Shown here one piece after another: positions 31,187 through 55,650 of a stretch of DNA of 64,000 bases. Origin of the DNA: Ignavibacteriales bacterium (lineage in GTDB: Bacteria; Bacteroidota; Ignavibacteria; Ignavibacteriales; Melioribacteraceae); NCBI GenBank assembly GCA_021740915.1, contig JAIOYW010000020.1:1-64000 (forward strand), given 5' to 3'. The notes under the pieces were generated by a model that was not told the DNA's origin, did no database searches, and was given only the letters and a program-made list of their open reading frames with translations. The position numbers were made by a program, and so were the translations under genes. Each line of letters begins with the position of its first letter. The first letter of the stretch is position 1.

Positions 31187-32605
31187 ATGGCTACATACAC
31201 AATTGTAATTTACAGTCTAATAATTGGCTGGACACTTTTCTCAATTTATTATATCTATCGAGTTTGGGCTCAGAAGAAAGTAATTAATTATGTATATGAA
31301 TCAATTCCGACTGTTTTCACTACACTTGGAGTATTAGGAACATTTGTAGGTATTTATTTCGGACTACAACATTTTGATGTAGATAAAATTACAGAAAGTA
31401 TTCCGCCACTATTGGAAGGTATGAAAACAGCTTTTTCCACTTCAATTTGGGGTATTGTACTTTCTTTAATATTTGGCAAAGCCTCTCAAATTATCCTGCA
31501 TGGTGTTGAACAAAAATCACCACCCAAACCTACTGATGAACTTGCCGCTCTGCAAGAAATAACATTATTACTAAAAGAAGGAAATAAAAAATCAAATGAT
31601 AATTTGCTATTACTTAACAAATCCCTTATTGGCGAAACAGATGATAGTATCTCTACTCAAATAATAAAGCTTAGAAATCAATTTACTGAATTTGATAATA
31701 AACAAGATTTTCAAAATAAAACTTTAGAGAAAGTTCAATTAGCACTTGGTGGTGATGGAGAAACAAGTTTGTTGACACAAATACAGAAGTTAAGAGCCGA
31801 GCAAAATGAATATTCAAAAGACAACAAGAAAAACATTGATTGGATTATTGAATCAATGAACAAAAATAATGAACTTATACGGCAGAAATTTGATGAGTTT
31901 TCCGAACTTTTAGCTAAAAACAATACAGAAGCATTGGTCGAAGTAATGAAAGATGCTACTGAACAGTTTAATGCTCAGATGTCTGCATTAATTGAAAAAT
32001 TAGTTCAAGAAAACTTCAAAGAGCTAAATAATAGCGTACAGCGAATGAATCAGTGGCAACTTGAAAATAAGGAGATGATTATTTCGCTGACAAATCAATT
32101 TAAAGAAGTTTCTAATGAATTTGCAATTTCGTCAGTTGCTATTAAAGAGATTACGGAAAACACAACAAAGCTTACAAATGAAAACAGTCATTTAACTAAA
32201 CTAATTGAAGAACTTCAAAAAGTTCTTATTGATGACACTAAATTTCAAGAAATTGTTGGAAAACTTGCAACAACTATAGATACACTACAAGAAAATACAG
32301 AAGCATTTGACGAGACAACAGAAAAGTTGAATACATGGGTTAAAAACCAAATGAATTTTAGCGATAGCGTTGCCAAATTACTTACAAGGTTAGAAAATAT
32401 TGATAAAATCAAAGACATAAACGAAGTATTTTGGGAAAACACTAAAAAACAACTTAATGAAGGTGTAGGTGTGATTGAAAAAGCGAGCAAAAGACTTTCA
32501 AATGACCTTGAAAATATCAACTCTGAATTTTATGAAAGATTAAATGATACTCTTCAAAATCTTGACACTCTGATTCAGAGAATTATTGCCAACTATAAAA
32601 AATAA
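31187..32605 (+). CDS. zorA: ZorA-like MotA/ExbB-type channel protein with long coiled tail
   Basis: A 472-residue protein. Residues 5-25, 40-61 and 83-104 are membrane helices; TLGVLGTFVGIYFGL and GMKTAFSTSIWGIVLSLI carry the MotA/TolQ/ExbB proton-channel pattern. Residues 110-472 are a long, charged helical tail, as in the ZorA intracellular tail. ZorA and ZorB form an ion-driven membrane motor in Zorya anti-phage systems. There are no flagellar or Tol genes around, and zorB and an HNH nuclease gene follow at 5 and 1 nt spacing, which rules strongly for Zorya. The start is ATG 31187, after a poor ribosome site. Confidence 0.88.
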   Translation: MATYTIVIYSLIIGWTLFSIYYIYRVWAQKKVINYVYESIPTVFTTLGVLGTFVGIYFGLQHFDVDKITESIPPLLEGMKTAFSTSIWGIVLSLIFGKASQIILHGVEQKSPPKPTDELAALQEITLLLKEGNKKSNDNLLLLNKSLIGETDDSISTQIIKLRNQFTEFDNKQDFQNKTLEKVQLALGGDGETSLLTQIQKLRAEQNEYSKDNKKNIDWIIESMNKNNELIRQKFDEFSELLAKNNTEALVEVMKDATEQFNAQMSALIEKLVQENFKELNNSVQRMNQWQLENKEMIISLTNQFKEVSNEFAISSVAIKEITENTTKLTNENSHLTKLIEELQKVLIDDTKFQEIVGKLATTIDTLQENTEAFDETTEKLNTWVKNQMNFSDSVAKLLTRLENIDKIKDINEVFWENTKKQLNEGVGVIEKASKRLSNDLENINSEFYERLNDTLQNLDTLIQRIIANYKK

Positions 32606-32610
32606 AAAAT

Positions 32611-33348
32611 ATGGCATTGGCTAAAGGTAAAGGCAGTAGTAATGAAAGTAATTGGATTTCATTCTCAGATATAATGACTGGGTTAATGGTTATATTTATG
32701 TTTATTGCCATTTCATATATTGTAGAAGTTCAAAAAAAACAAAAAGAAAGAGATATTATATTTGAAGAATTTAAGGCGACTAAAGAGCAATTATATGCAG
32801 AATTAGAAAATGAATTTAAAGATGATTTCAAAGAATGGCAGGTTGAATTAGACAAAGACTTATCAATAAAATTCACTAATCCCGAAGTACTTTTTGAATC
32901 AGGTCAAACGAATATTCGACCCTATTTTGCACAGATATTGACTGAATTTTTCCCACGATATTTTACAATTCTTATGCAAGAGAAATACAAAAATAAAATT
33001 GCAGAAATTAGAATTGAAGGGCATACTGATACAGTTGCTGCATTAATATTTGACAACGACCCTTATATTGGAAATATCATGCTATCCCAATTAAGGTCAG
33101 CTCAAGTTTTAAAATATTTCAGAAACATGGACTATTATAAAAATTTAAGTTCAAAAGATGAACAGCGTTTACAATTTTGGATAACCGCAAATGGTTTGTC
33201 ATTTGGGCGGACATTAGATGATAACAAACAATTAACTGCATTAACAGGTAAGAAGGCAAACAATAATTATTCTCGCAGAGTTGAATTTAGAATAATTACA
33301 ACAAGTGAAACACTTATAGAGCAAGTCCTAAAAGAAATTTCAAAATAA
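32611..33348 (+). CDS. zorB: ZorB-like MotB/OmpA-domain stator protein
   Basis: A 245-residue protein. A single membrane helix (about 18-40) begins WISFSDIMTGLMVIFMF, with Asp20 at the place of the MotB proton-carrying Asp. Residues 85-235 are an OmpA/MotB peptidoglycan-binding domain: IRIEGHTDT, LSQLRSAQVLKYF and SRRVEFRI. It pairs with the ZorA-like protein encoded 5 nt upstream. In Zorya, ZorA5B2 complexes sense cell-envelope changes at phage entry and drive rotation; that role is inferred from the family. Confidence 0.9.
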   Translation: MALAKGKGSSNESNWISFSDIMTGLMVIFMFIAISYIVEVQKKQKERDIIFEEFKATKEQLYAELENEFKDDFKEWQVELDKDLSIKFTNPEVLFESGQTNIRPYFAQILTEFFPRYFTILMQEKYKNKIAEIRIEGHTDTVAALIFDNDPYIGNIMLSQLRSAQVLKYFRNMDYYKNLSSKDEQRLQFWITANGLSFGRTLDDNKQLTALTGKKANNNYSRRVEFRIITTSETLIEQVLKEISK

Positions 33349-33349
33349 T

Positions 33350-34168
33350 ATGTTATATCAATTTGAAATATTAGACAAAAAGCTTGATGAATGGGGATTC
33401 CCAATCATAAATGGCAATAGTGGATTTCAATCAATTAGGACAGACTTTAAAAAAGCGTATAAAGCTGGTAAGATAGAGTTTCGAGAAGATGGTATATATT
33501 TAATTCACGACGGTCAAGAATGGAAAGGTTATATATATATGCCTACTTATCGGGTTGAAAAGTATGGACAGGTTTCACGATTTCATTTGAAAAGGTGTTC
33601 GGTCATTGATGATTTTATCACAAGCGGTATGTTTAATACTTATTATCATTGGTCTAATAACGCACACAATGATATAATTGATAGGGATACAAAAAAAGTT
33701 CATAAGGAACAAACTCTTCAACTTTGTAGTAAATGTCGTGAAGAACTTTTTGATGATATTGTAGATACCGAAGATTTTTTTAACACCCTTGCATCAGACG
33801 ATTCTAATGATTCAGATATTGAGATTGATATTTTTGGATATGCCCGAGAATGGCAAAAGATAAGTAAAAATTACAGAGCTAAACAAGATTTTAAATGCGA
33901 ATCATGCTCTATTCAGATTACAAACCCAGTAGATAGAAGATATTTACATACTCACCATAAAAACGGCGATAAAACTAATAACAAAGAATCAAATTTAGAA
34001 TGTTTATGCATTCTCTGTCATTCTTATAAGGATATTAGGCACGAAGAATATTTTGATAAAAAAAGAATGTTAAAAGAAATCAGTGCATTTGTAAAATCAT
34101 ATCGAACTGATTTGGCGAAAATTAATAATCCATATCTTAAAAGGTATGACAATGAACAAATTAAATAA
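33350..34168 (+). CDS. HNH endonuclease, ZorE-like effector
   Basis: A 272-residue cytoplasmic protein, ATG one base after the zorB stop. The C-terminal third holds the HNH fold: CESC (183-186), LHTHHKNGD with H200/H202/H203, then NLECLCILCH (C220, C223). A second Cys set, KRCS (C83) and LCSKCREEL (C126/C129), suggests a zinc-binding N-terminal module. Type II Zorya consists of ZorA, ZorB and the HNH protein ZorE, so the gene order matches. Equivalence to ZorE is by position and domain, not by sequence comparison. Confidence 0.82.
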   Translation: MLYQFEILDKKLDEWGFPIINGNSGFQSIRTDFKKAYKAGKIEFREDGIYLIHDGQEWKGYIYMPTYRVEKYGQVSRFHLKRCSVIDDFITSGMFNTYYHWSNNAHNDIIDRDTKKVHKEQTLQLCSKCREELFDDIVDTEDFFNTLASDDSNDSDIEIDIFGYAREWQKISKNYRAKQDFKCESCSIQITNPVDRRYLHTHHKNGDKTNNKESNLECLCILCHSYKDIRHEEYFDKKRMLKEISAFVKSYRTDLAKINNPYLKRYDNEQIK

Positions 34169-34178
34169 AGCACATGGC

Positions 34179-34308
34179 GGTAACAACGGGTATAAAACAT
34201 TTGGCGGTCGGTGGTTTATCAAGCGTTTCAGCTCGTATCAAAAGTAGTTGTAACTTGATAGGAAATCGCTTCGAAATGCCAAACGTTTCATACACGCAAC
34301 CGTTGTAA
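34179..34308 (+). other. attC-like site A
   Basis: Begins GGTAAC ten bases after the HNH stop and ends GTTGTAA. Outer arms CAACGG (34184) and CCGTTG (34300) pair exactly; TATAAAAC (34191) pairs with GTTTCATA (34285) with one mismatch; TTTGGC pairs with GCCAAA (34278). The middle is unpaired. The left end is almost the same as site C. Confidence 0.7.
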
Positions 34309-34327
34309 TCCATTTTAAACCAAGACA

Positions 34328-34849
34328 ATGAATAATACAATTGACAAACTTAAAAGAATAAAAGTAGATGCCTTGTATGGCAAGAAAAAACACTTTAACG
34401 CTGCCGTCAGAATTGAAAAAACACATTTACGAATTGGGGTTCCTCTTATAATTATTAATGTAGTGACAGGTTCTCTACTTTTTTCCGTTCTGACTGACAA
34501 CACAACAAATTGGGTAAAATATATTCCTTTGGTTTTGGCATTTATTGCTGCCCTGTTAAGTGGATTTCAAACCTATTTCAACCTACCCAAAAAAGTAGAG
34601 GGTCACAGAAGAGTTGGAAATAAGCACCTTTCAGTTATGAAAAAATGTGACAGATTACAGGGGTACATCGCAGATAACCTAATAACTAACAATGATTTGG
34701 TTCTTAGAATTGAAGAATTAGCTACCGAAATTGAAGAAATAAATAAAGAGGCTGAGTCATATCCGACTTCAAAAAAGGATTATGAACTAGCAAAAAAAGG
34801 AATCGAAACCGGAGAAGAAACTTACACTTCAACAGAATTAGAAATTTGA
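34328..34849 (+). CDS. SLATT-domain 2TM effector protein
   Basis: A 173-residue protein with two membrane helices (about 36-56 and 62-84), a short basic N-terminal helix and a C-terminal helical region (EIATEIEEINKEAE-type, strongly charged). This is the plan of SLATT proteins, which are predicted pore-forming effectors paired with SMODS nucleotidyltransferases or SLOG proteins. The nucleotidyltransferase gene follows 1 nt later. It would be triggered by a cyclic nucleotide and depolarise the membrane; this is family-based inference. Confidence 0.85.
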   Translation: MNNTIDKLKRIKVDALYGKKKHFNAAVRIEKTHLRIGVPLIIINVVTGSLLFSVLTDNTTNWVKYIPLVLAFIAALLSGFQTYFNLPKKVEGHRRVGNKHLSVMKKCDRLQGYIADNLITNNDLVLRIEELATEIEEINKEAESYPTSKKDYELAKKGIETGEETYTSTELEI

Positions 34850-34850
34850 T

Positions 34851-35645
34851 ATGGCAAGTTCAATCGATACATATTTGAGAGATTTATCATACTCTTTTTA
34901 TCTAAAAAAAGATTCAACAGAGATTTCAAAAATAAATACATCAAAAACAAACTTGTTAGCAAACCTCGACAAAGAACTTGGAATTCTAATAAAACGAAGA
35001 TTTGTTTTTGGTTCTTATGACAGAGACACAATTTTGCCAAGGTCAATCGATAGCAAATCTGATATTGATATCATGGTTGTTTTTAATCATACAGACTATG
35101 AAAGAACACCTGAAACTTACAGAGCTTGGTTAATAAATTTTGGAGACAAATACTACAAAAACAGATACGGCTCAGAAGTAGTCCGCTCTTTTCCAACAGT
35201 AACAATTAGACTCGGAAATATTCACTTCGACCTTGTTCCTGCAAAAGAAGAAAGTATCTATCCCTATATTCCGGGTGCTTATGGATGGCAATCAACAGAC
35301 CCAAATGATGTAAAGACAAAACTTACAGAAGCGAACACAAAATATAATCAAGTAGTAAGACCAATAATACGTTTACTAAAAGCTTGGAATTGTACTCATG
35401 GCTACCCATTTGATTCTTATCAACTTGAATTAGAAATAACTCAAATGAATTTTCACGGAGATAATGTTCAGAGCGGATTTTTCTGGGCAGTGAGACACTT
35501 GTCAACTAGTTGGAGTGACCCACAAACAAAAACAGACAAAATCAATAGTTTAAGATATAATATTGATAAAGTAGCAGAATCATTAGAAGCCTATGATGTT
35601 ACTGCTGCAAAAAGGTGGTTACATAGAGTTCTTCCATATGGATAA
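34851..35645 (+). CDS. SMODS-type nucleotidyltransferase (CD-NTase)
   Basis: A 264-residue enzyme of the cGAS/DncV-like family. The active site is FVFGSYDRDT (Gly54-Ser55) followed by SKSDIDIMVVF with metal ligands D71 and D73, and a third acidic residue D127 in NIHFDLVP. The rest fits the OAS1-like helical part. It should make a cyclic oligonucleotide on phage infection and activate the SLATT protein encoded 1 nt upstream. No Cap2/Cap3 or HORMA genes are present, so this is a two-gene CBASS-like unit. Confidence 0.9.
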   Translation: MASSIDTYLRDLSYSFYLKKDSTEISKINTSKTNLLANLDKELGILIKRRFVFGSYDRDTILPRSIDSKSDIDIMVVFNHTDYERTPETYRAWLINFGDKYYKNRYGSEVVRSFPTVTIRLGNIHFDLVPAKEESIYPYIPGAYGWQSTDPNDVKTKLTEANTKYNQVVRPIIRLLKAWNCTHGYPFDSYQLELEITQMNFHGDNVQSGFFWAVRHLSTSWSDPQTKTDKINSLRYNIDKVAESLEAYDVTAAKRWLHRVLPYG

Positions 35646-35836: not shown

Positions 35837-37672
35837 ATGGAAAGAGTCATACCTTCATGGGATATATTGAATAGCTTAAAACAACCATTAACCAATGGAG
35901 AAAGGGCTTTGATTGAATTTTTAGATGACCATTTAACCAAAGACCGTAATTTCAATGGTGATGATTTGACAAAATATAATGGATGGTTGATTTTTGTTCA
36001 ACCTTTTTTAAATGGTTGTCGTCCTGATGTAGTTATCGTAAATCCTTTTGTCGGGATTCAGATTATTGAAGTCAAGGACTGGGATTTAAATAACTATTGG
36101 TTTGAGAAAAAAGATAGTGGAAAATTTGAGTTTTGTGTTCATGATAGGAATGGCTCATATCTAATAAAGTCACCAGTTCATCAAGTTGAATATTATAAAG
36201 AAAAGCTTTCTGGTCAATTGATTCCGCAACTGGGCGAAGCTATTGATTCAGACCAAAGAAAATTTGGATTAATAAGAACTTCAGTATATTTCCATAAAGC
36301 AAGAACTGAAACAGCCCAAGAATTATTTAAACGACAAGTTCCTAACTTTGATTATTTCCCCATATTCGGTTATGATTTATTATCAAGTACAAATATTCGA
36401 AAAATTGTGCCTGATAGCTATTTGACTAAAAGTTATTACTGGAATTCAGATTGGAATAAAGAAGTTCTATTTTGGTTAAATCCACCTTTTCATTCTATAG
36501 AACAAACGGTTCGACTGACTTTGAATAAATATCAAAAGTTATTTGCTGAACCTAAAACTGGACATTACAGAGTAAGAGGAGTTGCTGGCAGTGGAAAGAC
36601 ACAAGTTTTGGCATATCGTGCTGGAGAATTAGCTTCAAAAGGATTTAGAGTGCTTATTTTATCTTTTAATATTACTCTTTGGCATTATATAAGAGATATG
36701 GTTCAAAGAAGCCCTTTTGAATTTGAATGGAATAGATTTACATTTAACCATTTCCATGGTTTTTGCAAAGATATACTTAATGAATTTGGTGAAAAATGGC
36801 CGAGCGAATATGGTGATGATGAAAGTATTTTTAGGGAAGTTGTTCCCTCAAAAGTAATTTCAGTTCTTTCAAAAGGTGATTATGAAAAATATGATGCTGT
36901 TCTGATAGATGAGGGTCAAGATTACTATTTTGAATGGTATAATATGCTTTGTAAATTTCTTACAAACAGAGATGAAGTAGTTGTCGTTTGCGATAAAAAA
37001 CAAAATATTTACGGTCGAGCAATGGAATGGCTTGATAAAAGGCGTGCCGGTGTCGAAAAATTTGGAGATTGGATTGAGCTAAAGACCGTAGTTAGGATGC
37101 CTGAAGGAGTTGCTAACATGACTAAACGATTTAGTGAGAAATTTGAGTTGAGTCAAGATGTAAGAGTTGAAAATATTGAAAGACCTGATTTATTTAATCA
37201 ATATATTGAGCATACTGTTTGGGAAAATATAGATGAAAATGATTGGCTTTCAAAAGTTAATGAAGCGTTTGAATTAATAAAAAGTAATGGGACTTCCAAA
37301 CATGGCTCTGATACTGTTATTTTGTTACCTGACAAAAATTATGGCTTTGAATGTGTTAAATTCTTTGAAACACAAAAGAATATAAAAGTAAATCACGTTT
37401 TTGAAGATGATTCTGAAAAAAGGTATCATCGGCACAAAAAAGCATTTTGGATGGGCGATGGTCGTCTTAAAATATCTACAATCCATAGTTTTAAAGGATG
37501 GGAGGTATTAAATGTGATTATTTATATTCCTGAATCATTTTGGGGCGGATTGGAATTAAATGATAGAAAAGTTTATACGGCAATGACAAGAACTCGACAA
37601 AATTTGATAGTTTTAAATTCTAATAAAAGATATTGGGATTTTGGAGAAGAATTACCAAAAAGATGGAAATAA
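35837..37672 (+). CDS. NERD nuclease-domain / superfamily 1 helicase fusion
   Basis: A 611-residue protein. Residues 15-135 are a NERD-type nuclease domain: E22 in NGERALIEFL, D64 in RPDVVIVN and E78-x-K80 in IIEVKDW, the restriction-endonuclease-like ligand set. Residues 230-605 are a UvrD-like helicase: GVAGSGKTQV (Walker A), LIDEGQDYYFEW (Walker B), VVCDKKQNIYG, STIHSFKGWEV and YTAMTRTRQNLIV. The gene is alone in its cassette between sites B and C. A role in defence or DNA repair is suggested by the company it keeps; no target is known. Confidence 0.92.
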   Translation: MERVIPSWDILNSLKQPLTNGERALIEFLDDHLTKDRNFNGDDLTKYNGWLIFVQPFLNGCRPDVVIVNPFVGIQIIEVKDWDLNNYWFEKKDSGKFEFCVHDRNGSYLIKSPVHQVEYYKEKLSGQLIPQLGEAIDSDQRKFGLIRTSVYFHKARTETAQELFKRQVPNFDYFPIFGYDLLSSTNIRKIVPDSYLTKSYYWNSDWNKEVLFWLNPPFHSIEQTVRLTLNKYQKLFAEPKTGHYRVRGVAGSGKTQVLAYRAGELASKGFRVLILSFNITLWHYIRDMVQRSPFEFEWNRFTFNHFHGFCKDILNEFGEKWPSEYGDDESIFREVVPSKVISVLSKGDYEKYDAVLIDEGQDYYFEWYNMLCKFLTNRDEVVVVCDKKQNIYGRAMEWLDKRRAGVEKFGDWIELKTVVRMPEGVANMTKRFSEKFELSQDVRVENIERPDLFNQYIEHTVWENIDENDWLSKVNEAFELIKSNGTSKHGSDTVILLPDKNYGFECVKFFETQKNIKVNHVFEDDSEKRYHRHKKAFWMGDGRLKISTIHSFKGWEVLNVIIYIPESFWGGLELNDRKVYTAMTRTRQNLIVLNSNKRYWDFGEELPKRWK

Positions 37673-37680
37673 AAAAGGTT

Positions 37681-37808
37681 GCTAACAACGGGTATAAAAC
37701 ATTGGGGTTTAGTCAGTTATAATGTATTTGCGCCCGTTTCGTGTTTCTTCTCGTGGGATACAGACGCGCCTCGCAATCCCCAGCGTTTCATACCGCCAGC
37801 CGTTATCG
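37681..37808 (+). other. attC-like site C
   Basis: Starts GCTAACAACGG eight bases after the helicase stop and ends GTTATCG (37802-37808). TATAAAAC (37693) pairs with GTTTCATA (37785); ACAACGGG pairs imperfectly with the CCGTTA end. Its first 24 bases nearly repeat those of site A. Confidence 0.72.
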
Positions 37809-37981
37809 TTCATTATAAAAGAACGCATTTGGCAAACTATAAACCAGATTCAATATGGTTCGTATCTTAATATGAGCAAAAAAAAAAAAGATACATAACT
37901 AAAGAGAATTCGGTTAAATTATTTGAATCAACAAAGATTAGAGTTCATTGGAATAATGAACAAAAAAGATGGTAATTCTCA
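37807..37981 (+). pseudogene. Broken 5' fragment of a Bro-N-like gene, copy 1
   Basis: Starts at the end of site C. After an ATGAGC and twelve A residues, one frame reads ITKENSVKLFESTKIRVHWN, NNEQKRW, then TAA and FS. This resembles the start of Bro-N/antirepressor-type proteins (xVxLFExxKIRxxWxxExxxWYFS), with the expected Tyr codon changed to a stop and the start out of frame. It ends abruptly at 37981. A copy lies at 41323-41494. Confidence 0.6.
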
Positions 37982-38034
37982 TATATTGCACCCCAAAATA
38001 GTGAGAGAGGTATAAGGTGGAGAGTAAATGATTG

Positions 38035-38081
38035 ATTCAGAGGCACGAAGTGGAGCGAAGCGGAACGTAGTGCCTCTGAAT
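38035..38081. repeat. Perfect 12-bp hairpin with 23-nt loop
   Basis: ATTCAGAGGCAC (38035-38046) and GTGCCTCTGAAT (38070-38081). The loop is GAAGTGGAGCGAAGCGGAAC followed by GTA. There is no T run, so it is not a normal terminator; it resembles the mobile palindromes that RAYT proteins handle. Confidence 0.55.
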
Positions 38082-38222
38082 CTGGCGAAAAATTTTTGCG
38101 GCATTTTACTATTTTTCTAACACTATTTTTAGGAGAACCTAATGCCATTTAAGACAAACAAAACAGCGGAAGACAGGGCTGGGTTAAGAAATGAAGAATG
38201 AAATTATTGAAGGTTTGGTCAA

Positions 38223-38807
38223 ATGACATTATACAAGAGCAAATACCGCATTGAATCAGCGAGATTAAAAAATTGGGATTATTCTTCAGCAGGATCATAT
38301 TTTGTCACCATCTGCACCAAAAGCCGTGAACATTATTTTGGAAATATTTGTGATGGCAAAATGGTGTTATCAGAAATCGGTAAAATTGCTAATGAATACT
38401 GGGCAAAAATACCGAACCATTTTCAATTTGTGGTTTTGGGTAAATTGATTATCATGCCAAATCACGTTCACGGTATTATATCCATTGTTTCCCCTGCCAC
38501 CGCCGGGTCCCCTGTATTCGTCGGTTCCCCTGTAGAGACGCCCAAATTGGGCGTCTCTACGGATATAAATACGGATATAAATACAAATACGGATAAGAAT
38601 TGGAAATCCGGCAACCTGGGGGTTATTATTAATCAATACAAACGCGCGTGTACCATCAACATTAGAAAAATATTACCTGATTTTTCATGGCAGGCACGAT
38701 TCCATGATCATATAATCCGCAACAATGATGAATTACACAGAATAGAAAAATACATTATAGAAAACCCTGTTAATTGGTTGACAGATGATTTACATAGCAA
38801 AAATTAG
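38223..38807 (+). CDS. RAYT-type REP-associated tyrosine transposase (Y1/HUH)
   Basis: A 194-residue single-strand transposase of the IS200/IS605-related RAYT group. The HUH motif is in IIMPNHVHGI; the start GSYFVTICTKSREHYFG and the tyrosine region VIINQYKRACT are typical. Residues 95-125 are a low-complexity insert (STDINTDINTNTDKN-type) that includes the translated palindrome at 38532-38560. RAYTs mobilise REP palindromes and are usually single-copy housekeeping genes. It precedes the RhuM gene by 11 nt. Confidence 0.93.
   Translation: MTLYKSKYRIESARLKNWDYSSAGSYFVTICTKSREHYFGNICDGKMVLSEIGKIANEYWAKIPNHFQFVVLGKLIIMPNHVHGIISIVSPATAGSPVFVGSPVETPKLGVSTDINTDINTNTDKNWKSGNLGVIINQYKRACTINIRKILPDFSWQARFHDHIIRNNDELHRIEKYIIENPVNWLTDDLHSKN
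38532..38560. repeat. Perfect 29-bp palindrome inside the RAYT gene (REP-like)
   Basis: Two 14-bp arms, GTAGAGACGCCCAA and its exact complement, around one A. It lies in frame in a variable part of the RAYT coding sequence, followed by two tandem copies of GGATATAAATAC. Confidence 0.9.
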
Positions 38808-38818
38808 GGGGATTCAGA

Positions 38819-39850
38819 ATGGAAAATAACAATCAATCCTCCTTCATTCTATTCAAAACCGAAGACGAAAAAATATCGGTCGATGTTCGCTTTGAAGATG
38901 AAACCGTTTGGCTTTCACAGGAACAGATGGCACAGCTTTTTGGAAAAGGCCGAACAACTATTACCGGACATATTCAAAATATATTTAAAGAGGGCGAGTT
39001 AAACGAGGATGTGGTATGTCGGAATTTCCGACTAACCACTCAGCATGGCGCCATTGAGGGCAAAACGCAGGAAGTTTCCGTAAAGTTATACAATCTCGAT
39101 GTCATTATTTCTGTCGGGTACCGCGTAAAATCCCATAGAGGTACTCAATTCCGCATCTGGGCTACCAAACGGCTCAATGAATATATTCGCAAAGGTTTTA
39201 CCATGGACGACGAACGCCTGAAAAATCTGGGAGGCGGCGGTTACTGGAAAGAGCTGCTGCAAAGAATCCGCGACATTCGGGCATCCGAGAAGGTTTTTTA
39301 TCGTCAGGTACTTGATATTTATTCAACCAGTATTGACTATGATCCTAAAGCAGATGTTTCCATTGCATTTTTCAAAAAAGTGCAAAATAAAATTCATTAT
39401 GCCGTTCACGGACAAACAGCCGCAGAAGTCATTTTTACCCGTGCCGATGCAGAAAAAGAGTTTATGGGCTTAATGACTTTTCCGGGCAATCTTCCATACC
39501 TGAAAGATGTGGTGGTAGCAAAAAATTACCTGAACGAGAAGGAGCTTCGTTCACTTGGGCAATTAGTATCCGGGTATCTGGATTTTGCCGAAAGACAGGC
39601 AGAACGGGAACAGGCGATGACCATGAAAGACTGGGCAGAGCATTTAGATAAAATCCTGACCATGAGCGGTGAGAAATTACTACAGGGGGCGGGCTCTATA
39701 AGTCACGATACTGCCATAGAAAAAGCCACGACAGAGTATAAAAAGTATCAGCAAAAGACACTCAGTGAGGCTGAAAAAAATTATCTCGATAGTTTGAAAT
39801 CATTGGAAAACCAAAGCAAGCTTCTCAACAAAATGGATGAAAAACCATGA
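38819..39850 (+). CDS. RhuM family protein
   Basis: A 343-residue protein matching the RhuM (virulence RhuM) family along its full length: DETVWLSQEQMAQLFGKGRTTIT with a helix-turn-helix, YNLDVIISVGYRVKSHRGTQFRIWAT, LKNLGGGGYWKELLQRIRDIR and the central FFKKVQNKIHYAVHGQTAAEVI. Members occur in phage-defence and mobile islands and look like DNA-binding proteins; the biochemical function is not known. It starts 11 nt after the RAYT gene. Confidence 0.93.
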   Translation: MENNNQSSFILFKTEDEKISVDVRFEDETVWLSQEQMAQLFGKGRTTITGHIQNIFKEGELNEDVVCRNFRLTTQHGAIEGKTQEVSVKLYNLDVIISVGYRVKSHRGTQFRIWATKRLNEYIRKGFTMDDERLKNLGGGGYWKELLQRIRDIRASEKVFYRQVLDIYSTSIDYDPKADVSIAFFKKVQNKIHYAVHGQTAAEVIFTRADAEKEFMGLMTFPGNLPYLKDVVVAKNYLNEKELRSLGQLVSGYLDFAERQAEREQAMTMKDWAEHLDKILTMSGEKLLQGAGSISHDTAIEKATTEYKKYQQKTLSEAEKNYLDSLKSLENQSKLLNKMDEKP

Positions 39851-44315: not shown

Positions 44316-46331
44316 ATGACACGGCAAGAAGCGGAACAGCTATTACAAAATACTTTTAAGCTCTCTCATTTTTATGATGAACAATGGGCTGCCATTGATA
44401 AGTTATTAAAAGGCGAGCAGGTTCTTCTGATTGAGAAAACCGGTTTCGGCAAATCGTTGTGCTTCCAGTTTCCCGCAGTGTTGCACAAAGGCATGACGGT
44501 AATTTTCTCACCATTAATTGCGTTAATGCGTGATCAGGTAAAAAAACTGAACTTATTGGGAATTGCCGCCAACTGTGTTAATAGCGAGCAAACGCCTGAG
44601 GAAAATACTCAGATAATTAAGGATGCAATATCCGGGGAAATTAAAATTCTTTATATAGCCCCTGAAAGGCAGGAAAATTCTGAGTGGGTGGAAGCAACCC
44701 GGCGGATGAATCTTTCAATGGTTGTGGTTGATGAAGCTCATTGTATTTCAGTTTGGGGGCATGATTTCAGGCCAGCTTTCAGACGCATTATTAATCTTGT
44801 TAATTTGCTGCCGAAAGGGCTTCCGGTACTTGCAACAACTGCAACTGCCACAAAAAGGGTGGAGGCTGATATTGCCGCACAGATGGGAGGAAATTTAACT
44901 ACAATCAGGGGTAACCTGATGAGGGATAATTTCAGGCTGCTCGTAATAAAAGTTAATTCGGATGATGAAAAACTGATATGGTTAGGTCAAAATCTTGGAA
45001 ATATTCCGGGAACCGGCATACTATATACAGGGACAAGAGTTAATACGGAGATATATTCCAAATGGTTTGAGTATCTAAATATATCCTCGGCAAGTTATAA
45101 TGCGGGATTAGATCCTGAATCGAGAATTGCTGTTGAAAATGGTTTGATGGAGAATCGTTGGAAATGTGTGATTTCTACAAATGCACTGGGGATGGGAATT
45201 GACAAACCCGACATTCGTTTTATAATACATACCCAAATACCGCAATCGCCTATCCATTATTATCAGGAAATCGGAAGAGCCGGCAAGGATGGTCAGCCGG
45301 CATATATAATCCTTTTTTTTTATGGAGAAGATAAAAAGCTGCCCGAAGCTTTTATTGAGGGCGGAAGACCTGCAATCCCAAAGTATGAAAAAGTTATCAC
45401 GGCAATAAAAAATGAAATGCTCGGCGAACGTGAACTGATGAAGCGGACTAATTTGAAGCAGACTCAAATAAGAGTAATAAAAGCCGATCTTATTGAACAA
45501 AAAATTATTCGTGAGGTAACAGTTGGGAAAAGCAAAAAGTTTGAATATATTCCAGGTGCACCGCAGTTAAATACTAAAACTTTTGAGGAATTGCGTGCAA
45601 GCAAAACCCGTGATTTGGATAAAATGCTTGAATATGTTGAAACAACTCAATCACGCATGAAATACCTTTGCGATTATCTGGGTGATTCGTCAATACACGA
45701 TTTTACTAATTGTGATAATACAGGGCTGAAAAAAAGAACAGTTTCAGTCAATGAAGAATGGACTAAGAAACTGCAGGATTTTCGTGAGGATTATTTTCCG
45801 GAACTTGATGTTGAGACAAAGGGAGCGAATTTAGTAATTGGGATAGCTGCTTCATATTATGGTGTTTCAAATGTAGGCGGCGCTTTGCATCGCAGCAAGT
45901 ATGAAAACGCCGGTGATTTTCCCGATTTTCTTTTAAGATTAGCGCTAAAAGCATATCGCAAAAAATTTGGCCAGGAAAAATTTGATCTTATCCTCTATGT
46001 TCCACCAACAAAGTCGGGTGACCTTGTTAAAAATTTTGCTGTGAAAGTATCGGAAGTCCTAAAATTCCCGATCTCTCATAATTTAATTAAGCATAGAACA
46101 ACGAGTGAACAGAAAGTTTTTGAAAACTCTTATCTGAAATCCGACAATGTAAAAGATGCTTTTGAGCTTAAAACACCGGATGAAGTGAGAGGGAAAACCA
46201 TTTTATTAATTGATGATATTTTCGACAGCGGCTCGACAATTAAAGAAATTGGAAGATATTTAAGTAATTTAGGGGCTGTTAAGATAGCGCCCTTAGTAAT
46301 AGCAAGAACAGTCGGAGGAGATTTAGTCTGA
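44316..46331 (+). CDS. RecQ-like DNA helicase fused to a phosphoribosyltransferase domain
   Basis: A 671-residue protein. Residues 1-345 are a RecQ-type SF2 helicase: GFGKSLCFQFPA (motif I), VVVDEAHCISVWGHDFRP (II), LATTATAT (III), STNALGMGIDKPDIRF (V) and HYYQEIGRAGKDG (VI). After a linker with a winged-helix-like part, residues 500-671 hold a PRTase fold: ILYVPPTKSGD and the PRPP loop ILLIDDIFDSGSTIKEI, as in ComF. HRDC is absent. It is coupled to the DprA-like gene by a CTGA overlap. Together they resemble DNA-uptake proteins reused in a defence-like pair; this is inference. Confidence 0.93.
   Translation: MTRQEAEQLLQNTFKLSHFYDEQWAAIDKLLKGEQVLLIEKTGFGKSLCFQFPAVLHKGMTVIFSPLIALMRDQVKKLNLLGIAANCVNSEQTPEENTQIIKDAISGEIKILYIAPERQENSEWVEATRRMNLSMVVVDEAHCISVWGHDFRPAFRRIINLVNLLPKGLPVLATTATATKRVEADIAAQMGGNLTTIRGNLMRDNFRLLVIKVNSDDEKLIWLGQNLGNIPGTGILYTGTRVNTEIYSKWFEYLNISSASYNAGLDPESRIAVENGLMENRWKCVISTNALGMGIDKPDIRFIIHTQIPQSPIHYYQEIGRAGKDGQPAYIILFFYGEDKKLPEAFIEGGRPAIPKYEKVITAIKNEMLGERELMKRTNLKQTQIRVIKADLIEQKIIREVTVGKSKKFEYIPGAPQLNTKTFEELRASKTRDLDKMLEYVETTQSRMKYLCDYLGDSSIHDFTNCDNTGLKKRTVSVNEEWTKKLQDFREDYFPELDVETKGANLVIGIAASYYGVSNVGGALHRSKYENAGDFPDFLLRLALKAYRKKFGQEKFDLILYVPPTKSGDLVKNFAVKVSEVLKFPISHNLIKHRTTSEQKVFENSYLKSDNVKDAFELKTPDEVRGKTILLIDDIFDSGSTIKEIGRYLSNLGAVKIAPLVIARTVGGDLV
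46314..46331 (+). promoter_or_regulatory. Ribosome site GGAGGAG deciding a CTG start
   Basis: GGAGGAG at 46314-46320 is followed after 7 nt by CTG (46328-46330), which overlaps the RecQ stop TGA (46329-46331). The spacing is ideal for the CTG and too long for the TTG at 46358. Confidence 0.7.
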
Positions 46332-47467
46332 ACAAAGAAGCTGCATATTGGATAGCATTGGCACATTTGCCAAGATGGGGTTACCTAAAAATTAACAACC
46401 TGATCATAAAATTTTACCATGAGAAAAAACTTTCAATAGAGGATTTTTTCCAATTATCCGAAGATGAATGGCAAACCGAATTTGATCTTGGATATAAGGA
46501 AACAGAGGATTTAAAGAAGGCAAAATCCGAATTGGTCAACAATGCTTTTTTAGCTGAAACGTTGATAAATGAAGGATATGAGATAATCCCGATAACTTCA
46601 CCCGAATATTCAAAAACCCTCAAAGCAAATCTTAAAGCAGCACACGCACCGGCTTTATTATATGTCAAAGGCAACAAACAAATAATGCAGGAAAAATCTA
46701 TTGCAATTGTCGGCTCTCGTTCTGCCTCTGAAATAGCATTAGCATTTACCGATAATATCGCCATGTTAGCGAGCAGGGAGCATAAAGTAGTTGTAAGCGG
46801 TTTTGCAAAAGGAGTTGACAAACAAGCATTAGATTCGGCAATTAATTACAAAGGACAGAGTATAATTGTGCTTCCTCAGGGAATAATGACCTTTGGTTCA
46901 GGTTTTAAACTTTATTACAGGCAAATTGTTGATGGTGATGTTTTAGTCCTGAGTACTTTTTTCCCAAAAGCTCCATGGAAAGCAGAATTAGCGATGGCAA
47001 GAAATCCAATCATATACGGTCTTGCTGATGAAATATGTGTTGCAGAATCGTCTGAAAAAGGGGGAACCTGGTCCGGAGTTGTTGACGGATTAAGAAAAAA
47101 AAGAATAATATATGTTCGAAAACCAGAAACATCTGAAAGAAATGCTAATGATTTATTGATACAAAAAGGCGCCATACCGGTTAATTTCGATGGCAAGCCT
47201 GAGAGCGGTCATTATCCGTTAACATCGGCGAACAGCGCGATATTTGTCCGCGAAAATGAAGAAAATAACCAAAAACGAATCTTGGATTTGCTTAAGAATG
47301 GAGAATATTCGGCAAAAGAAATTATTCAAAAATTAGACTTAAATTGGTCAGAAAAACAACTCAGAGTTTTTTTAGAAAATCAAAAAGATGTTGAATGTAT
47401 GAGCGGCAAACCTTTGCGATTTACTCTGAAAGATTCAACAATAAAGCAGAAATCATTATTTGATTAA
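46328..47467 (+). CDS. DprA/Smf-like DNA-processing protein, probable CTG start
   Basis: A 379-residue protein with an N-terminal helical part and a Rossmann-like DprA core: IAIVGSRSASEIAL, VSGFAKGVDKQALDSAI, IIVLPQGI and WSGVVDGLRKKRIIYVRKP. The C-terminus resembles a winged helix. The usual DprA N-terminus is recovered only from CTG 46328 (NKEAAYWIALAHLPRWG); TTG 46358 would remove it. DprA loads RecA on single-stranded DNA in transformation; the pairing with a RecQ-PRTase fusion suggests another role. Confidence 0.85.
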   Translation: MNKEAAYWIALAHLPRWGYLKINNLIIKFYHEKKLSIEDFFQLSEDEWQTEFDLGYKETEDLKKAKSELVNNAFLAETLINEGYEIIPITSPEYSKTLKANLKAAHAPALLYVKGNKQIMQEKSIAIVGSRSASEIALAFTDNIAMLASREHKVVVSGFAKGVDKQALDSAINYKGQSIIVLPQGIMTFGSGFKLYYRQIVDGDVLVLSTFFPKAPWKAELAMARNPIIYGLADEICVAESSEKGGTWSGVVDGLRKKRIIYVRKPETSERNANDLLIQKGAIPVNFDGKPESGHYPLTSANSAIFVRENEENNQKRILDLLKNGEYSAKEIIQKLDLNWSEKQLRVFLENQKDVECMSGKPLRFTLKDSTIKQKSLFD

Positions 47468-47516: not shown

Positions 47517-48143
47517 TCATGCCTTCCTTACTCTGCCAAAGAGATACAGCATTTCCGCCCCGATCTGCTTCGCTCTTTCGGTGTATTTTACAGACTCAAG
47601 GCTGGTCCCGTCATACGCTTTAGGGTCTTCATAACGGACAGGGAAGCGGGCTTCCGCTCCGAAAACGACCGGACAGTTTTCGTCTGCATCCGAACAGGTC
47701 ATAACAGCTGTAAAGTTTTTCTGCGGATTGAACGGGTCGGAATATTTTTTTGAAAAACACTTTAGTGGATTTTTTTCTGCTGAGTAAAAAACTTCATAAA
47801 CCGGATTATCTGTGTAGTCAGTTTTTTTAATCCTGAAACCAAGTCCGCCCAATGCTTCAACAGCCCGCGGATTAAATGCCGTTGCCTCAGTTCCGCCGGA
47901 AAAACAATTTACACCTTCAATACCGTAATATTCTGCAGAAGTCTGCGCCCAGATTTGAGCAATATGGCTTCTGCGTGAATTATGTGTGCATATAAAAATA
48001 AAATTCAACTCACTTTTCTTGCTGAGTAAGCTGCTGATATAATCAGCGAATTCTTTAAGCAGGTTTTTTCTTTCAGGCGGAATTTCGCCGAATGAAGAAC
48101 TCAACTGCTGAATTGTTATTTCGAGATCATTGTATAAAGGCAT
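47517..48143 (-). CDS. arsC: Arsenate reductase, thioredoxin-coupled (LMW phosphatase fold)
   Basis: A 208-residue cytoplasmic enzyme reducing As(V) to As(III). The phosphatase-type loop is C52-THNSR-R58 (Cx5R), and the redox pair is C150-SDADEN-C157, with the same spacing as in S. aureus ArsC (C82/C89). An N-terminal extension of about 45 residues is unusual. It is the last gene of a minus-strand arsenic operon and follows CcdA by 18 nt. Three thioredoxin-fold proteins upstream could serve it. Confidence 0.93.
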   Translation of the reverse strand: MPLYNDLEITIQQLSSSFGEIPPERKNLLKEFADYISSLLSKKSELNFIFICTHNSRRSHIAQIWAQTSAEYYGIEGVNCFSGGTEATAFNPRAVEALGGLGFRIKKTDYTDNPVYEVFYSAEKNPLKCFSKKYSDPFNPQKNFTAVMTCSDADENCPVVFGAEARFPVRYEDPKAYDGTSLESVKYTERAKQIGAEMLYLFGRVRKA

Positions 48144-48161
48144 TTAATTATCCTCTCCAAA

Positions 48162-48863
48162 TTAAATAGTTGTAAAGATCAGGTATATCCCGCCGAGAAT
48201 AACCAGTATTCCGCATATTCTTTTTGTCCATAAAATTGTTCGTGATCCCTCACTCCAGTCCAAATATTTCTGAAGCTTTCCGGTAAGTGTTCCGGCTCCG
48301 ACAATCACAGAACAATGACCGATGCCGAAAGCGAAAAGAAAAATCACGGAGAGCAGAAAATCCGACTGAGCAGTTTGAAAAACAATTCCAAGTACCGGCG
48401 CCATATAGGCGAACGTGCAAGGTCCTAGAGCAATTCCAAACAACAATCCTAAAATCAGAGCGGCGGCAAGTCCACTGGTTTTAGTCTTATGAATCCCGAT
48501 TGTGTCCCACTCAAGTTTAATTATATCGAGCAGATATAACCCGACAACAAAGAAAATTCCAGCCACAAAATAGTTCCCATAGATTCCGACATCTCCCATC
48601 AATCTTCCGAGAGATGCAGTAATTAATCCAATTATCGCGATTGTGACTAATATTCCCACCGAAAAAATCATAGAAATACTGAATGTTCTGCTGACAGAGA
48701 TTTTCCCCTGTGAACTGATAAACCCCACGATCAGAGGAATGCTTGAAAGATGACAAGGAGAGAGTAAAACCGATAATACTCCCCAGAAAAAAGATGCAGG
48801 CAGAGCAATCCACAGAGTCCCGTTCAAGGCTTCATATAATGCTGTAAATAGATTCTCGAACAT
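48162..48863 (-). CDS. CcdA-like transmembrane electron carrier
   Basis: A 233-residue membrane protein of the CcdA/DsbD-beta family with six helices. The two redox Cys are in LSPCHLSSIPL and LGPCTFAYMAPVLG. It moves reducing power from cytoplasmic thioredoxin to exported thioredoxins. It is encoded 2 nt after the exported thioredoxin, so it probably feeds that protein. Confidence 0.93.
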   Translation of the reverse strand: MFENLFTALYEALNGTLWIALPASFFWGVLSVLLSPCHLSSIPLIVGFISSQGKISVSRTFSISMIFSVGILVTIAIIGLITASLGRLMGDVGIYGNYFVAGIFFVVGLYLLDIIKLEWDTIGIHKTKTSGLAAALILGLLFGIALGPCTFAYMAPVLGIVFQTAQSDFLLSVIFLFAFGIGHCSVIVGAGTLTGKLQKYLDWSEGSRTILWTKRICGILVILGGIYLIFTTI

Positions 48864-48865
48864 TG

Positions 48866-49267
48866 TCAGCCTTTTTTTGTGAGAGGAAGCAGTCCTTTCT
48901 GCTGCAAGATTTTATCAATTTCAGCTTCCGGATAAAATCCCTGATGCCTGTGGAATTCCTTCCCGTTGCCATCAAGAAAAACCTGTGTGGGAATCAGATT
49001 TATCTGATATTTCTGGGCATAATGTTTTTGTTCGGGTTTCCACACATCATAAAAAACAACTTTAACCTGATCGCCGTATTTCTTTTCGATCGCTTCCATA
49101 ACCGGCTGCATCTGTTTACATGGGATGCAGTTTACTGAACCGAGTTCGATGAAAGTGACCAAGGGATTCTTTGAGCCAGCGACCTGATCAGATTGGTCAG
49201 TCTTCTGCGCCTGAAAAGGAGTGCAGAGAATCAGAAAAAAAACTGCTGCAAAAAGTGGCACTCTCAT
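48866..49267 (-). CDS. Exported thioredoxin
   Basis: A 133-residue protein with a signal peptide (VPLFAAVFFLILCTPFQA) and a thioredoxin fold with VNCIPCKQMQPVM (CIPC) and the cis-Pro in INLIPTQVFL. It should be kept reduced by the CcdA-like protein encoded next. Confidence 0.93.
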   Translation of the reverse strand: MRVPLFAAVFFLILCTPFQAQKTDQSDQVAGSKNPLVTFIELGSVNCIPCKQMQPVMEAIEKKYGDQVKVVFYDVWKPEQKHYAQKYQINLIPTQVFLDGNGKEFHRHQGFYPEAEIDKILQQKGLLPLTKKG

Positions 49268-49270
49268 TTT

Positions 49271-49510
49271 TCAGCCCTCATTAAGCCATTGAAGTATCTG
49301 TTCGTCTTTGGGAATGATCCCGTAACTTTTAACCTTTTCATTGACAACAAGTCCGGGTGTCATCATAATTCCGTACTTCATAATGTCATTGATCTCCGTG
49401 ACTTTCTCAACGGTGGCATTAATATTATTACTTGCGATCACTTCCCTCACCTTTGATTCAAGAGCCATACATTTTTTGCATCCGGTTCCAAGAATTTTTA
49501 CTGCTGCCAT
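49271..49510 (-). CDS. Small thioredoxin-like redox disulfide protein (TM0996/MTH895 type)
   Basis: A 79-residue single thioredoxin fold with GTGCKKCMALE (CKKC) and MTPGLVVNEKV. ATG 49510 follows AAGGTGATGAAA at a good distance; GTG 49519 and ATG 49516 are possible. Members often accompany DUF318 permeases in arsenic or redox operons, as here. Confidence 0.9.
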   Translation of the reverse strand: MAAVKILGTGCKKCMALESKVREVIASNNINATVEKVTEINDIMKYGIMMTPGLVVNEKVKSYGIIPKDEQILQWLNEG

Positions 49511-49584
49511 TTTCATCACCTTAATTTATTATCTTACCAAAAATTAAACTCTGCAATTTTTATACTTTCTGATCCCAAAATATT

Positions 49585-50136
49585 TTATTCCCAGAAATAC
49601 ATTTGGGCTTCAAGAGAATTTGGGAAATTTGATTTGATATCTGACAGGGTTTGCTTCATCAACGTATTATCCTTTGTCATTATGTAGCGTGCTTTTTCTA
49701 TCTGAACCAGAAGACGCGGATAAAGCGCAGAATCAGTCAGATCATTCAGACCTTGCTCTGTATTACGGATCACCTCATCATATTTGCCCGCAGGCATTAT
49801 TGTTTCGGCTATTCCGATTCGGAGCATTGCCCGGAAATCCAATGCAGGCAGATAGCCGTTAAAATGGAAAAACGATCTGCCGTTATGATCGAGAAAGTAA
49901 ACAGAGGGAGTCCAGTAAGCGCCAAGTTCTTTCCGTTCCTGTCTGTTTCTTATCAGATCAAGTTTAAGCAGAATAAACCAATCGAGCATCTCCTTTTTGA
50001 GATTTTCGTCGATATACGTTGTGCTGTTCAGTTTTTTGCAGCCTCCGCAGCCATCCATCTCAAATTGCAGCAGAATAGGTTTATGTTCCTGCAGCGATGC
50101 ATTTTTTGCATCATCTAAGTTATTTAGCCAAATCAT
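49585..50136 (-). CDS. Cytoplasmic thioredoxin-fold protein (CGGC)
   Basis: A 183-residue protein without a signal peptide. It has an active-site-like MDGCGGCKKLN, and the fold continues with WTPSVYFLDHNGR, then a helical tail of about 70 residues. It resembles thioredoxin_7/DUF255-type proteins. It is the first thioredoxin gene after acr3 (77 nt). Substrate unknown; ArsC is a candidate. Confidence 0.85.
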   Translation of the reverse strand: MIWLNNLDDAKNASLQEHKPILLQFEMDGCGGCKKLNSTTYIDENLKKEMLDWFILLKLDLIRNRQERKELGAYWTPSVYFLDHNGRSFFHFNGYLPALDFRAMLRIGIAETIMPAGKYDEVIRNTEQGLNDLTDSALYPRLLVQIEKARYIMTKDNTLMKQTLSDIKSNFPNSLEAQMYFWE

Positions 50137-50213
50137 ATTTTTTTCTCCGGATTATTTTCATTTCAAATATTTATGATAATTTAATTAATATCTGTCTTTT
50201 TATTCGGAATCTG

Positions 50214-51299
50214 CTAAGGGCACACATCCGGAGATTTAACACTTCCTTCTTCAACTTCCCCCTTAAAATATTTTTTCTGAAACCGTAGTGAAACGTTAAC
50301 CAGTCCGATAAGCACAGGCACTTCAACAAGCGGGCCTATGACGGCTGCAAATGCCTCTCCGCTGTTTATGCCGAAAACTGCAATGGCAACAGCAATTGCG
50401 AGTTCAAAATTATTACTTGCAGCAGTGAATGAGAGTGTTGCCGTTTTGGAATAGTCAGCCCCGACTTTTTTCCCCAGGTAAAATGAAACGAGAAACATAA
50501 TGATAAAATATATGACCAGGGGTATTGCAATTCTTACAACATCAAGCGGGATTCTGACAATATACTCTCCCTTGAGTGAAAACATTACAAATATGGTGAA
50601 TAGCAGAGCTATTAAGGTTACCGGACTGATTTTCGGGATAAATTTCGACCCATACCATTCTTTCCCTTTTGCTCTGAGCAATACAAATCTGGTGACCATT
50701 CCGCCGAAGAAAGGGATTCCTAAATATATCAGCACACTTTCAGCTACCTGACCGATTGTAATATCAACGGCAAAACTCTGTAAACCAAACCATGCGGGTA
50801 TTACTGTCAAAAAAGCATAAGCGTAAAGCGAGAAAAACAGCACCTGGAAAATCGAGTTAAAAGCAACGAGTCCCGCAGCATACTCTGTATCTCCTTTAGC
50901 AAGTTCGTTCCACACAATAACCATTGCAATGCAGCGCGCCAGCCCGATCAATATTAAACCAGCCATGTATTCGGGATAGTCCTGAAGGAAGAGCACTGCA
51001 AGACCGAACATCAGTACAGGACCAATCAGCCAATTCTGCACAAGAGATAAACCCAGAACTTTTACATTTCTGAACACATCCGGCAGATCTTCATACTTTA
51101 CCTTTGCAAGCGGCGGATACATCATTAATATTAATCCGACAGCAATAGGGATATTTGTGGTTCCAACGCTCAATGAATTCCAGAAGCCGGCAACATTCGG
51201 GAAAAGATGTCCCGTTAACACGCCCGCGAACATGGCAAAAAATATCCATAAAGTAAGATATCTGTCCAGAAACGAAAGTTTTTTTATCAGTGAATTCAT
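50214..51299 (-). CDS. acr3: Arsenite efflux transporter, ACR3 family
   Basis: A 361-residue membrane protein with ten helices. The conserved Cys and surroundings are in [31 protein letters not shown] and [22 protein letters not shown] are further family blocks. It extrudes As(III) produced by ArsC using the proton gradient. It lies in the operon between the permease and thioredoxin genes. Confidence 0.96.
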
Positions 51300-51419
51300 C
51301 TAAATCCCTTCTTCAAAAATTGTTTTGAATAAAAAGCTTTTCGGGGTCACAGCGGAATATTAACTGGAATCAGAATGTCCCGGAAGTTAGCCCAACCAAA
51401 AATATGTCCTGTCAGATTC

Positions 51420-52721
51420 TTATATGGCGCCATATATAAACCCGCTCAGGGTTGACATCATTATTACAAGAGCGACATAAACGAGCGTTTTTTGTGTGCC
51501 AAGTACTCCCCTTATCACAAGCATATTTGGAAGTGAGAGTGCAGGACCTGCAAGTAAAAGTGCCAGTGCCGGTCCTTTACCCATGCCGCCTTTAATCAAA
51601 CCTTGCAGAATCGGTATTTCAGTCAGCGTGGCGAAATACATAAAAGCACCCGTAACCGAAGCGAAAAAATTAGAGAAAAATGAATTTCCACCGACCAATG
51701 TGTTAATCCACTCCTTCGGAATAATACCCCCATCACCCTCCACCGTGCCCAGCAGAAAACCGGCTGCCAGAACACCAGCTCCCAGCAGCGGCATTATCTG
51801 TTTTGCAAAACCCCAGCTCTCGCCGAGCCATTGGTTTGGTTCTCCTTCGGATAATGTCAGGGCTAATGTTGTGGCTATTATCGCAACAATAAATGGGAGC
51901 ATAGGCATATCGTAAAAAAAGAGCGATGTAATAACAACTGCGGCAGTTCCAGACAGTGCAAACAACTTTTTAACTTTCACAATGAATATCATGGATATTG
52001 CAAAGCCCGCCCCGAAAATCGATGTAATAAACCATTTGTTTGCATAAACTGAATACCAGAAACCTTCAGTGCTGTCTGACGGCTTTCCCCAGTTGACAAA
52101 TAACAGAATTGCAACAAGGATAAAAAAGTGCAGGGTAGTCTGCCAGATTGGTCTTGTCTCCTCTATCTCAGGTAATGCAATCTGAGTATCCGATCTTTCT
52201 TTTTCCTCTTTCCGGTAAATAAATGACATTATAAGACCGATAACAATGCTGAAAGTAACAGCGCCGATAACTCGTGCAATACCAAGTTCAATGCCAAGAA
52301 TTCGTGCGGTCAGGATAATCGCCAGAATATTAATTGCGGGGCCTGAGTAAAGGAAAGCAATTGCGGGTCCTAATCCAGCGCCTCTTTTATGAATACTTGA
52401 GAAAAGCGGAAGAACCGTGCAGGAGCAAACGGCTAAAATTGAACCTGAAACAGAAGCGACTAAATAGGCAGCCCACTTTTTAGCTTTCGCTCCAAAGTAT
52501 TTAATAACCGCAGCCTGACTAATAAAAACCGATATAACACCGGCAATAAAAAATGCCGGAACCAGGCATAAAATGACGTGTTCCTGAGCATACCATTTCG
52601 CAAGTGCGAATGCATCAATTATTGCATCCCGGAATGTTATATTTTCAACGGGCATAAAGTATGCAAAAAGAAAAAATAAAATTATCCACAAAAATGACTT
52701 ATACTGATCTTTCCATTCCAT
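51420..52721 (-). CDS. DUF318/ArsP-like permease
   Basis: A 433-residue membrane protein, eight or more helices, in two related halves: SGSILAVCSCTVLPLFSSIHKRGAGLGPA and the second half with ALALLLAGPALSLPNMLVI. The CSCTVLP Cys pair is typical. Some members export methylated trivalent arsenic (ArsP); others have unknown cargo. The arsenic operon makes an arsenical likely. Confidence 0.9.
   Translation of the reverse strand: MEWKDQYKSFLWIILFFLFAYFMPVENITFRDAIIDAFALAKWYAQEHVILCLVPAFFIAGVISVFISQAAVIKYFGAKAKKWAAYLVASVSGSILAVCSCTVLPLFSSIHKRGAGLGPAIAFLYSGPAINILAIILTARILGIELGIARVIGAVTFSIVIGLIMSFIYRKEEKERSDTQIALPEIEETRPIWQTTLHFFILVAILLFVNWGKPSDSTEGFWYSVYANKWFITSIFGAGFAISMIFIVKVKKLFALSGTAAVVITSLFFYDMPMLPFIVAIIATTLALTLSEGEPNQWLGESWGFAKQIMPLLGAGVLAAGFLLGTVEGDGGIIPKEWINTLVGGNSFFSNFFASVTGAFMYFATLTEIPILQGLIKGGMGKGPALALLLAGPALSLPNMLVIRGVLGTQKTLVYVALVIMMSTLSGFIYGAI

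Positions 52722-53130: not shown

Positions 53131-55650
<2,520 letters not shown>

Follow-up and report, generated by a model that had tools for sequence, protein, structure and literature searches.

Introduction

The closest described systems to the locus analysed here combine a phosphoribosyltransferase (PRTase) with a DprA-like protein. The PsyrTA pair is attributed to Sberro 2013 in PMC8790059 and PMC9122126, and the same architecture has been characterised as RqlHI in Escherichia coli, where RqlH in the absence of RqlI causes SOS induction, filamentation and loss of growth (PMC4670107). This genotoxicity requires the PRTase and its residue D663, the PRTase by itself being insufficient; the helicase mutants K49A and D148A likewise disturb control, and RqlI co-precipitates with RqlH only when the PRTase domain is present (PMC4670107). 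Related to this, E. coli is protected from the phages T7 and lambda by a DprA-PRTase pair of the ShosTA type (PMC9122126). According to a review, ShosT acts both as a PRTase and as a pyrophosphatase and upsets the purine pool, it is countered by the DNA-binding ShosA, and the trigger is Gp0.7 of T7 (PMC12593503).

The locus considered here lies in the window, i.e. the whole stretch of 64,000 nucleotides that was analysed. The original prediction regarded its helicase-PRTase fusion and DprA-like neighbour as an under-described pair acting in nucleic-acid sensing or defence. The first qualification does not stand, given the earlier descriptions of PsyrTA and RqlHI, and the lead resolves to a known toxin-antitoxin and defence architecture. 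The genes are named psyrT and psyrA below.

Gene layout and translational coupling

The features of the locus are collected in Table 1. The psyrA start codon overlaps the TGA of psyrT by four bases (CTGA, 46328-46331), as had been predicted, and the first in-frame ATG, GTG or TTG downstream of this CTG is a TTG at 46358. In the relatives L020, L037, L038, L039, L041 and L045 the homologous position of the overlap reads ATGA. Besides, the toxin ends in a conserved TVGGD, whose coding stretch doubles as the Shine-Dalgarno sequence of psyrA. Since relatives carry ATGA at the same site and TVGGD supplies the Shine-Dalgarno, the arrangement is conserved and not due to chance, and on these sequence grounds the translational coupling of psyrT and psyrA is judged to be real.

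Table 1. Features of the psyrTA-like locus (positions of the window).
Feature	Position	Strand	Description	Basis
psyrT-like gene	44316..46331	+	671 aa, RecQ helicase with a ComF-type PRTase at the C-terminus; putative toxin	Pfam, PADLOC
RecQ helicase core	44316..45734	+	residues 1-473, with K46 (Walker A) and D139 (DEAH); zinc site degenerate, ~430-470	
PRTase domain	45756..46328	+	residues 481-671; PRPP loop DDIFDSGST	Pfam Pribosyltran, NCBIfam comF, fold matches
Shine-Dalgarno-like GGAGGAG	46314..46320	+	within the last codons of the toxin, before the CTG start	sequence; kept in relatives
psyrA-like gene	46328..47467	+	DprA-like, C-terminal winged-helix-like region, putative antitoxin	Pfam DNA_processg_A, PADLOC; start backed by relatives

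The PsyrT and PsyrA proteins

Pfam recognises DEAD (residues 22-183), Helicase_C (230-325) and Pribosyltran (610-658) in PsyrT, together with RecQ_Zn_bind at 424-468, the latter barely above the cut-off. The predicted RecQ-type helicase with a C-terminal PRTase is thus confirmed, and its PRPP loop (LLIDDIFDSGST) is intact, with the acidic residues D633, D634 and D637. The AlphaFold model of the whole toxin has a pLDDT of 88, and its residues 1-473 superimpose on a RecQ catalytic core with a Z score of 42.5 (393 residues, 2.7 A). When the PRTase domain is modelled alone (pLDDT 89), the top structural match is ComF from Helicobacter pylori (Z 16.2, 168 residues, 3.5 A), followed by ShosT (8zvc; Z 11.8, 168 residues, 3.4 A).

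Walker A K46, DEAH D139 and the PRPP-loop residues D633, D634, S638 and T641 are invariant across 27 homologues. D637 is retained throughout those window-clade members in which the PRTase was read; its equivalent is absent from L026-L030 and L019, all of them belonging to the other clade. The counterparts of RqlH K49, D148 and D663 in PsyrT are K46, D139 and D637, respectively, as placed by motif and not by alignment with the F11 sequence. The zinc-site cysteines are mostly gone in the window clade, being retained in L022, L031 and L039.

The product of the second gene is DprA-like, in agreement with the prediction: it matches DNA_processg_A with an E value of 4e-38, retains the family motifs GSR, SGxAxGxD and GGT, and has DprA and ShosA among its relatives of solved structure. 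The C-terminal winged-helix-like region of the window protein is lacking in PsyrA of L024, L025, L039 and L045.

Near-full-length matches to the PADLOC models were obtained for both proteins, PsyrT with an E value of 5.8e-258 (residues 2-669 to positions 2-688 of the 689 of the model) and PsyrA with 2.4e-77 (residues 39-379 to positions 35-394 of 398). On the other hand, PsyrT scores below the NCBIfam equivalog cut-off of the housekeeping RecQ (359 vs 640 bits) and PsyrA below that of the housekeeping DprA (99 vs 191 bits). These scores are far under the cut-offs and, therefore, the pair is neither the housekeeping RecQ nor the housekeeping DprA. Its membership of the PsyrTA (RqlHI-type) toxin-antitoxin family can be taken as virtually certain.

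Distribution and evolution of the pair

In a sample of 395 genomes of the phylum, 34 PsyrT loci were found at an E value of 1e-150 or better, in 32 genomes. PsyrA matches at 1e-60 or better came from 26 genomes, and PsyrT is present in 24 of these. Among the 28 loci read with downstream sequence (L003-L030), PsyrT is followed by a DprA-like ORF in 25 and by a broken remnant in three. The window clade is split from the other sampled homologues in the toxin tree with supports of 99 and 100, and the antitoxin tree gives the same split; inside the clade, the distances between toxins correlate with those between antitoxins (Mantel rho 0.48, p 0.001). Its members come from Bacteroidota, one Cloacimonadota MAG and one Altarchaeum MAG; single outliers could be due to binning errors.

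The original prediction would have been refuted by a conserved core position or by com neighbours in most relatives. The toxin is carried by 6 of the 57 genomes of the window's family, in six genera, and only three of 105 locus pairs (15 loci) share any neighbour, one gene each; the position of PsyrTA is therefore not conserved. The com genes of the window's genome lie elsewhere, as detailed below.

An intact PsyrT stands beside a broken PsyrA remnant in L012, L014 and L015, where the toxin is seemingly tolerated without its partner. Because of these loci, and because Gram-positives commonly have RqlH but no RqlI, it seems that the toxin need not be toxic in every case or that it is restrained by other means. 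RecQ and DprA have roles in DNA repair and recombination. The pair could accordingly be a non-toxic repair or recombination module whose placement in an island is incidental, the helicase unwinding damaged or stalled DNA, the PRTase handling nucleotides locally and the DprA-like protein helping to load a recombinase. The persistence of PsyrT beside broken partners, and the frequent occurrence of RqlH without RqlI, would agree with such a module. However, it is considered unlikely, since RqlH without RqlI is genotoxic via its PRTase (PMC4670107), further genes of the RecQ type and for DprA are present in the genome, and the distribution of PsyrTA is patchy and non-syntenic.

In five loci of the other clade, L026-L030 (G246, G207, G167, G258 and G270), the aspartate of the PRPP loop that corresponds to D663 of RqlH is absent and the DprA-like partners are devoid of the GSR, SGxAxGxD and GGT motifs. 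This joint loss of the toxin active site and the antitoxin pocket probably represents one evolutionary event. Two further ideas can be related to it. The first is that the PRTase modifies DNA by placing ribosyl-phosphate onto bases, PsyrA and the helicase resolving the adduct, a scheme put forward for RqlHI by Russell and Mulvey. It would be in line with RqlH being a genotoxic helicase-PRTase fusion (PMC4670107) as well as with the joint loss, but the reported target of ShosT is the purine pool (PMC12593503). We know of no PRTase that modifies DNA, which also counts against the idea. It is held to be very improbable. The second idea is that the window clade forms a subtype of PsyrTA with a function of its own: the pocket of the DprA-like protein would read or clear the nucleotide product of the PRTase, and the pair would thereby act as a product-gated immune switch and not simply as a toxin plus its inhibitor. 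It fits the losses in L026-L030, since the aspartate and the pocket motifs disappear jointly, and is nevertheless viewed as decidedly unlikely.

As a separate observation, a very large protein (~1620 aa; L045:13222-18081) is encoded directly after PsyrTA in L045, with 32% identity to the helicase region of PsyrT.

Genomic context

The window pair was expected to lie next to defence genes, and this is the case. ZorA2, ZorB2 and ZorE2 of a type II Zorya system, followed directly by a SLATT_4 effector and a SMODS cyclase (CBASS), occupy 31187-35645 of the window, 9-13 kb upstream of the pair. The interval 35837-39850 begins with a NERD-UvrD helicase (PADLOC C3a187, a candidate) and ends with a gene of the RhuM family (PADLOC PDC-S05), and between them lies a gene resembling, by eye, a REP-associated Y1 transposase, without Pfam match. 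More distant members of the family were found on an E. coli plasmid, between hsdS and hsdR of a type I restriction-modification system, and on an Acinetobacter plasmid, within BREX. When the neighbours were scanned with PADLOC, loci of the window clade had only a modest excess of defence families over other recQ-type genes and, therefore, no defence enrichment is claimed for the clade. The strong defence-island context is demonstrated for this window and not for every member of the clade.

The possible carriage of the pair by phages or plasmids was also considered. Searches with tblastn against phage records gave partial matches, mostly to the helicase part and none covering 80% of the query, and IMG/VR gave a single short fragment; carriage by phage or prophage was rejected on these results. 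Plasmid carriage of the window clade was likewise rejected, as none of the plasmid matches reached 60% identity and the plasmid-borne homologues are more distant.

Beside the island, at 47517-52721, there is what appears by eye to be an arsenic/thiol resistance cluster, with an ArsC-like phosphatase, thioredoxin-like proteins and ACR3-like and ArsP-like permeases, which may itself be mobile. Further on, the window encodes at 53422-55650 a large protein, by eye similar to monomeric isocitrate dehydrogenase, that is 71% identical to the one encoded at L081:6623-8848. The corresponding gene is directly upstream of PsyrTA in L081, ~6 kb downstream of it in the window, ~80 kb away in G035 and on another contig in G353. 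An empty site was not definable, as genomes of the family do not have the left-flank gene near the large gene found at 53422.

The pair had also been predicted to lie away from competence genes. Whereas the window is on contig C35, the ComEC of the genome is on C26, its ComF homologue on C3 and its canonical DprA on C16; two further RecQ-type helicase genes are on C24 and C8. A DNA-uptake module, equivalent to ComFA/ComFC in fused form together with DprA, might be suspected from ComF being the nearest fold to the PRTase and from the DprA family of the partner, but none of the genes at the locus was recognised as a com gene and the pair is patchy and island-associated. A competence role is extremely improbable, and it was rejected on genomic context.

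Proposed function

The defence or toxin-antitoxin reading of the original prediction is favoured by the patchy, non-syntenic distribution, by the island copy and by the near-full-length PADLOC matches. Most likely, by analogy with the described systems, the pair would be an abortive-infection toxin-antitoxin that perturbs the PRPP or purine pool. We regard it as fairly probable that the window pair is a PsyrTA toxin-antitoxin, probably acting in anti-phage abortive infection, with the PRTase restrained by PsyrA until infection. Points against this are the low identity to the other PsyrTA homologues sampled, the loci with an intact PsyrT beside a broken PsyrA, the frequency of RqlH without RqlI, the modest defence excess around other clade members, and one native PsyrTA of E. 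coli for which protection was not detectable (PMC12409345).

The sequence of events could be as follows. PsyrT would be a RecQ-family DNA translocase bearing a ComF-type PRTase, and translational coupling would ensure that production of PsyrA does not lag behind that of the toxin. In the uninfected cell, PsyrA would bind the toxin that carries the PRTase, and both PsyrA and an active helicase would be needed to hold the PRTase in check, following the precedent of E. coli RqlHI. Through the helicase, the PRTase would be coupled to the condition of the DNA. When infection alters DNA or transcription, the restraint on the PRTase would be lost. The freed PRTase may then consume PRPP or distort the purine pool, the purine effect being the one reported for ShosT, and the outcome would be DNA damage, SOS, filamentation and growth arrest, toxicity having been shown for RqlH. 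As for this mechanism, from loss of restraint to action of the PRTase on the PRPP or purine pool, we lean slightly towards its operating in the window pair. The window clade spans several phyla, including an archaeal MAG, and its conserved residues make the hypothesis of a PRTase toxin directly testable.

Comparison with known systems

The ComF/ComFA and DprA proteins of natural competence resemble the window pair in the PRTase fold, ComF being its best structural match, and in a partner of the DprA family. However, the helicase of the window is RecQ and not ComFA, it is fused and not separate, com genes were not recognised at the locus, and the canonical copies lie elsewhere in the genome.

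ShosTA (PDB 8zvb-8zvd, 9vzo), reported as an anti-phage pair, has in common with the window pair the PRTase fold and a DprA-like partner. The window toxin differs from it in having a full RecQ core. To our knowledge, ShosT is a PRTase without helicase domain. The similarity of the modelled fold suggests that the two defence families of RecQ-PRTase toxins and ShosT could share a single chemistry.

RqlH/RqlI of extraintestinal E. coli (PMC4670107) is likewise an operon of a RecQ-like helicase with a C-terminal PRTase and a DprA-like partner, and the counterparts of K49, D148 and D663, placed by motif, are present in the window toxin. Nevertheless, the window clade has a degenerate zinc site, and identity to the window toxin, measured with L096, an E. 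coli homologue carried on a plasmid, is 31.5%.

Finally, PsyrTA (PADLOC PDLC03928/PDLC03927) agrees with the window pair in the domain order of both proteins, in the toxin gene being first, in the adjacency of the genes and in matches of near full length, whereas the window pair belongs to a separate clade with ~30% (toxin) and ~25% (antitoxin) identity to the other homologues sampled. The window pair is, in summary, a new and divergent member of the already described PsyrTA/RqlHI.
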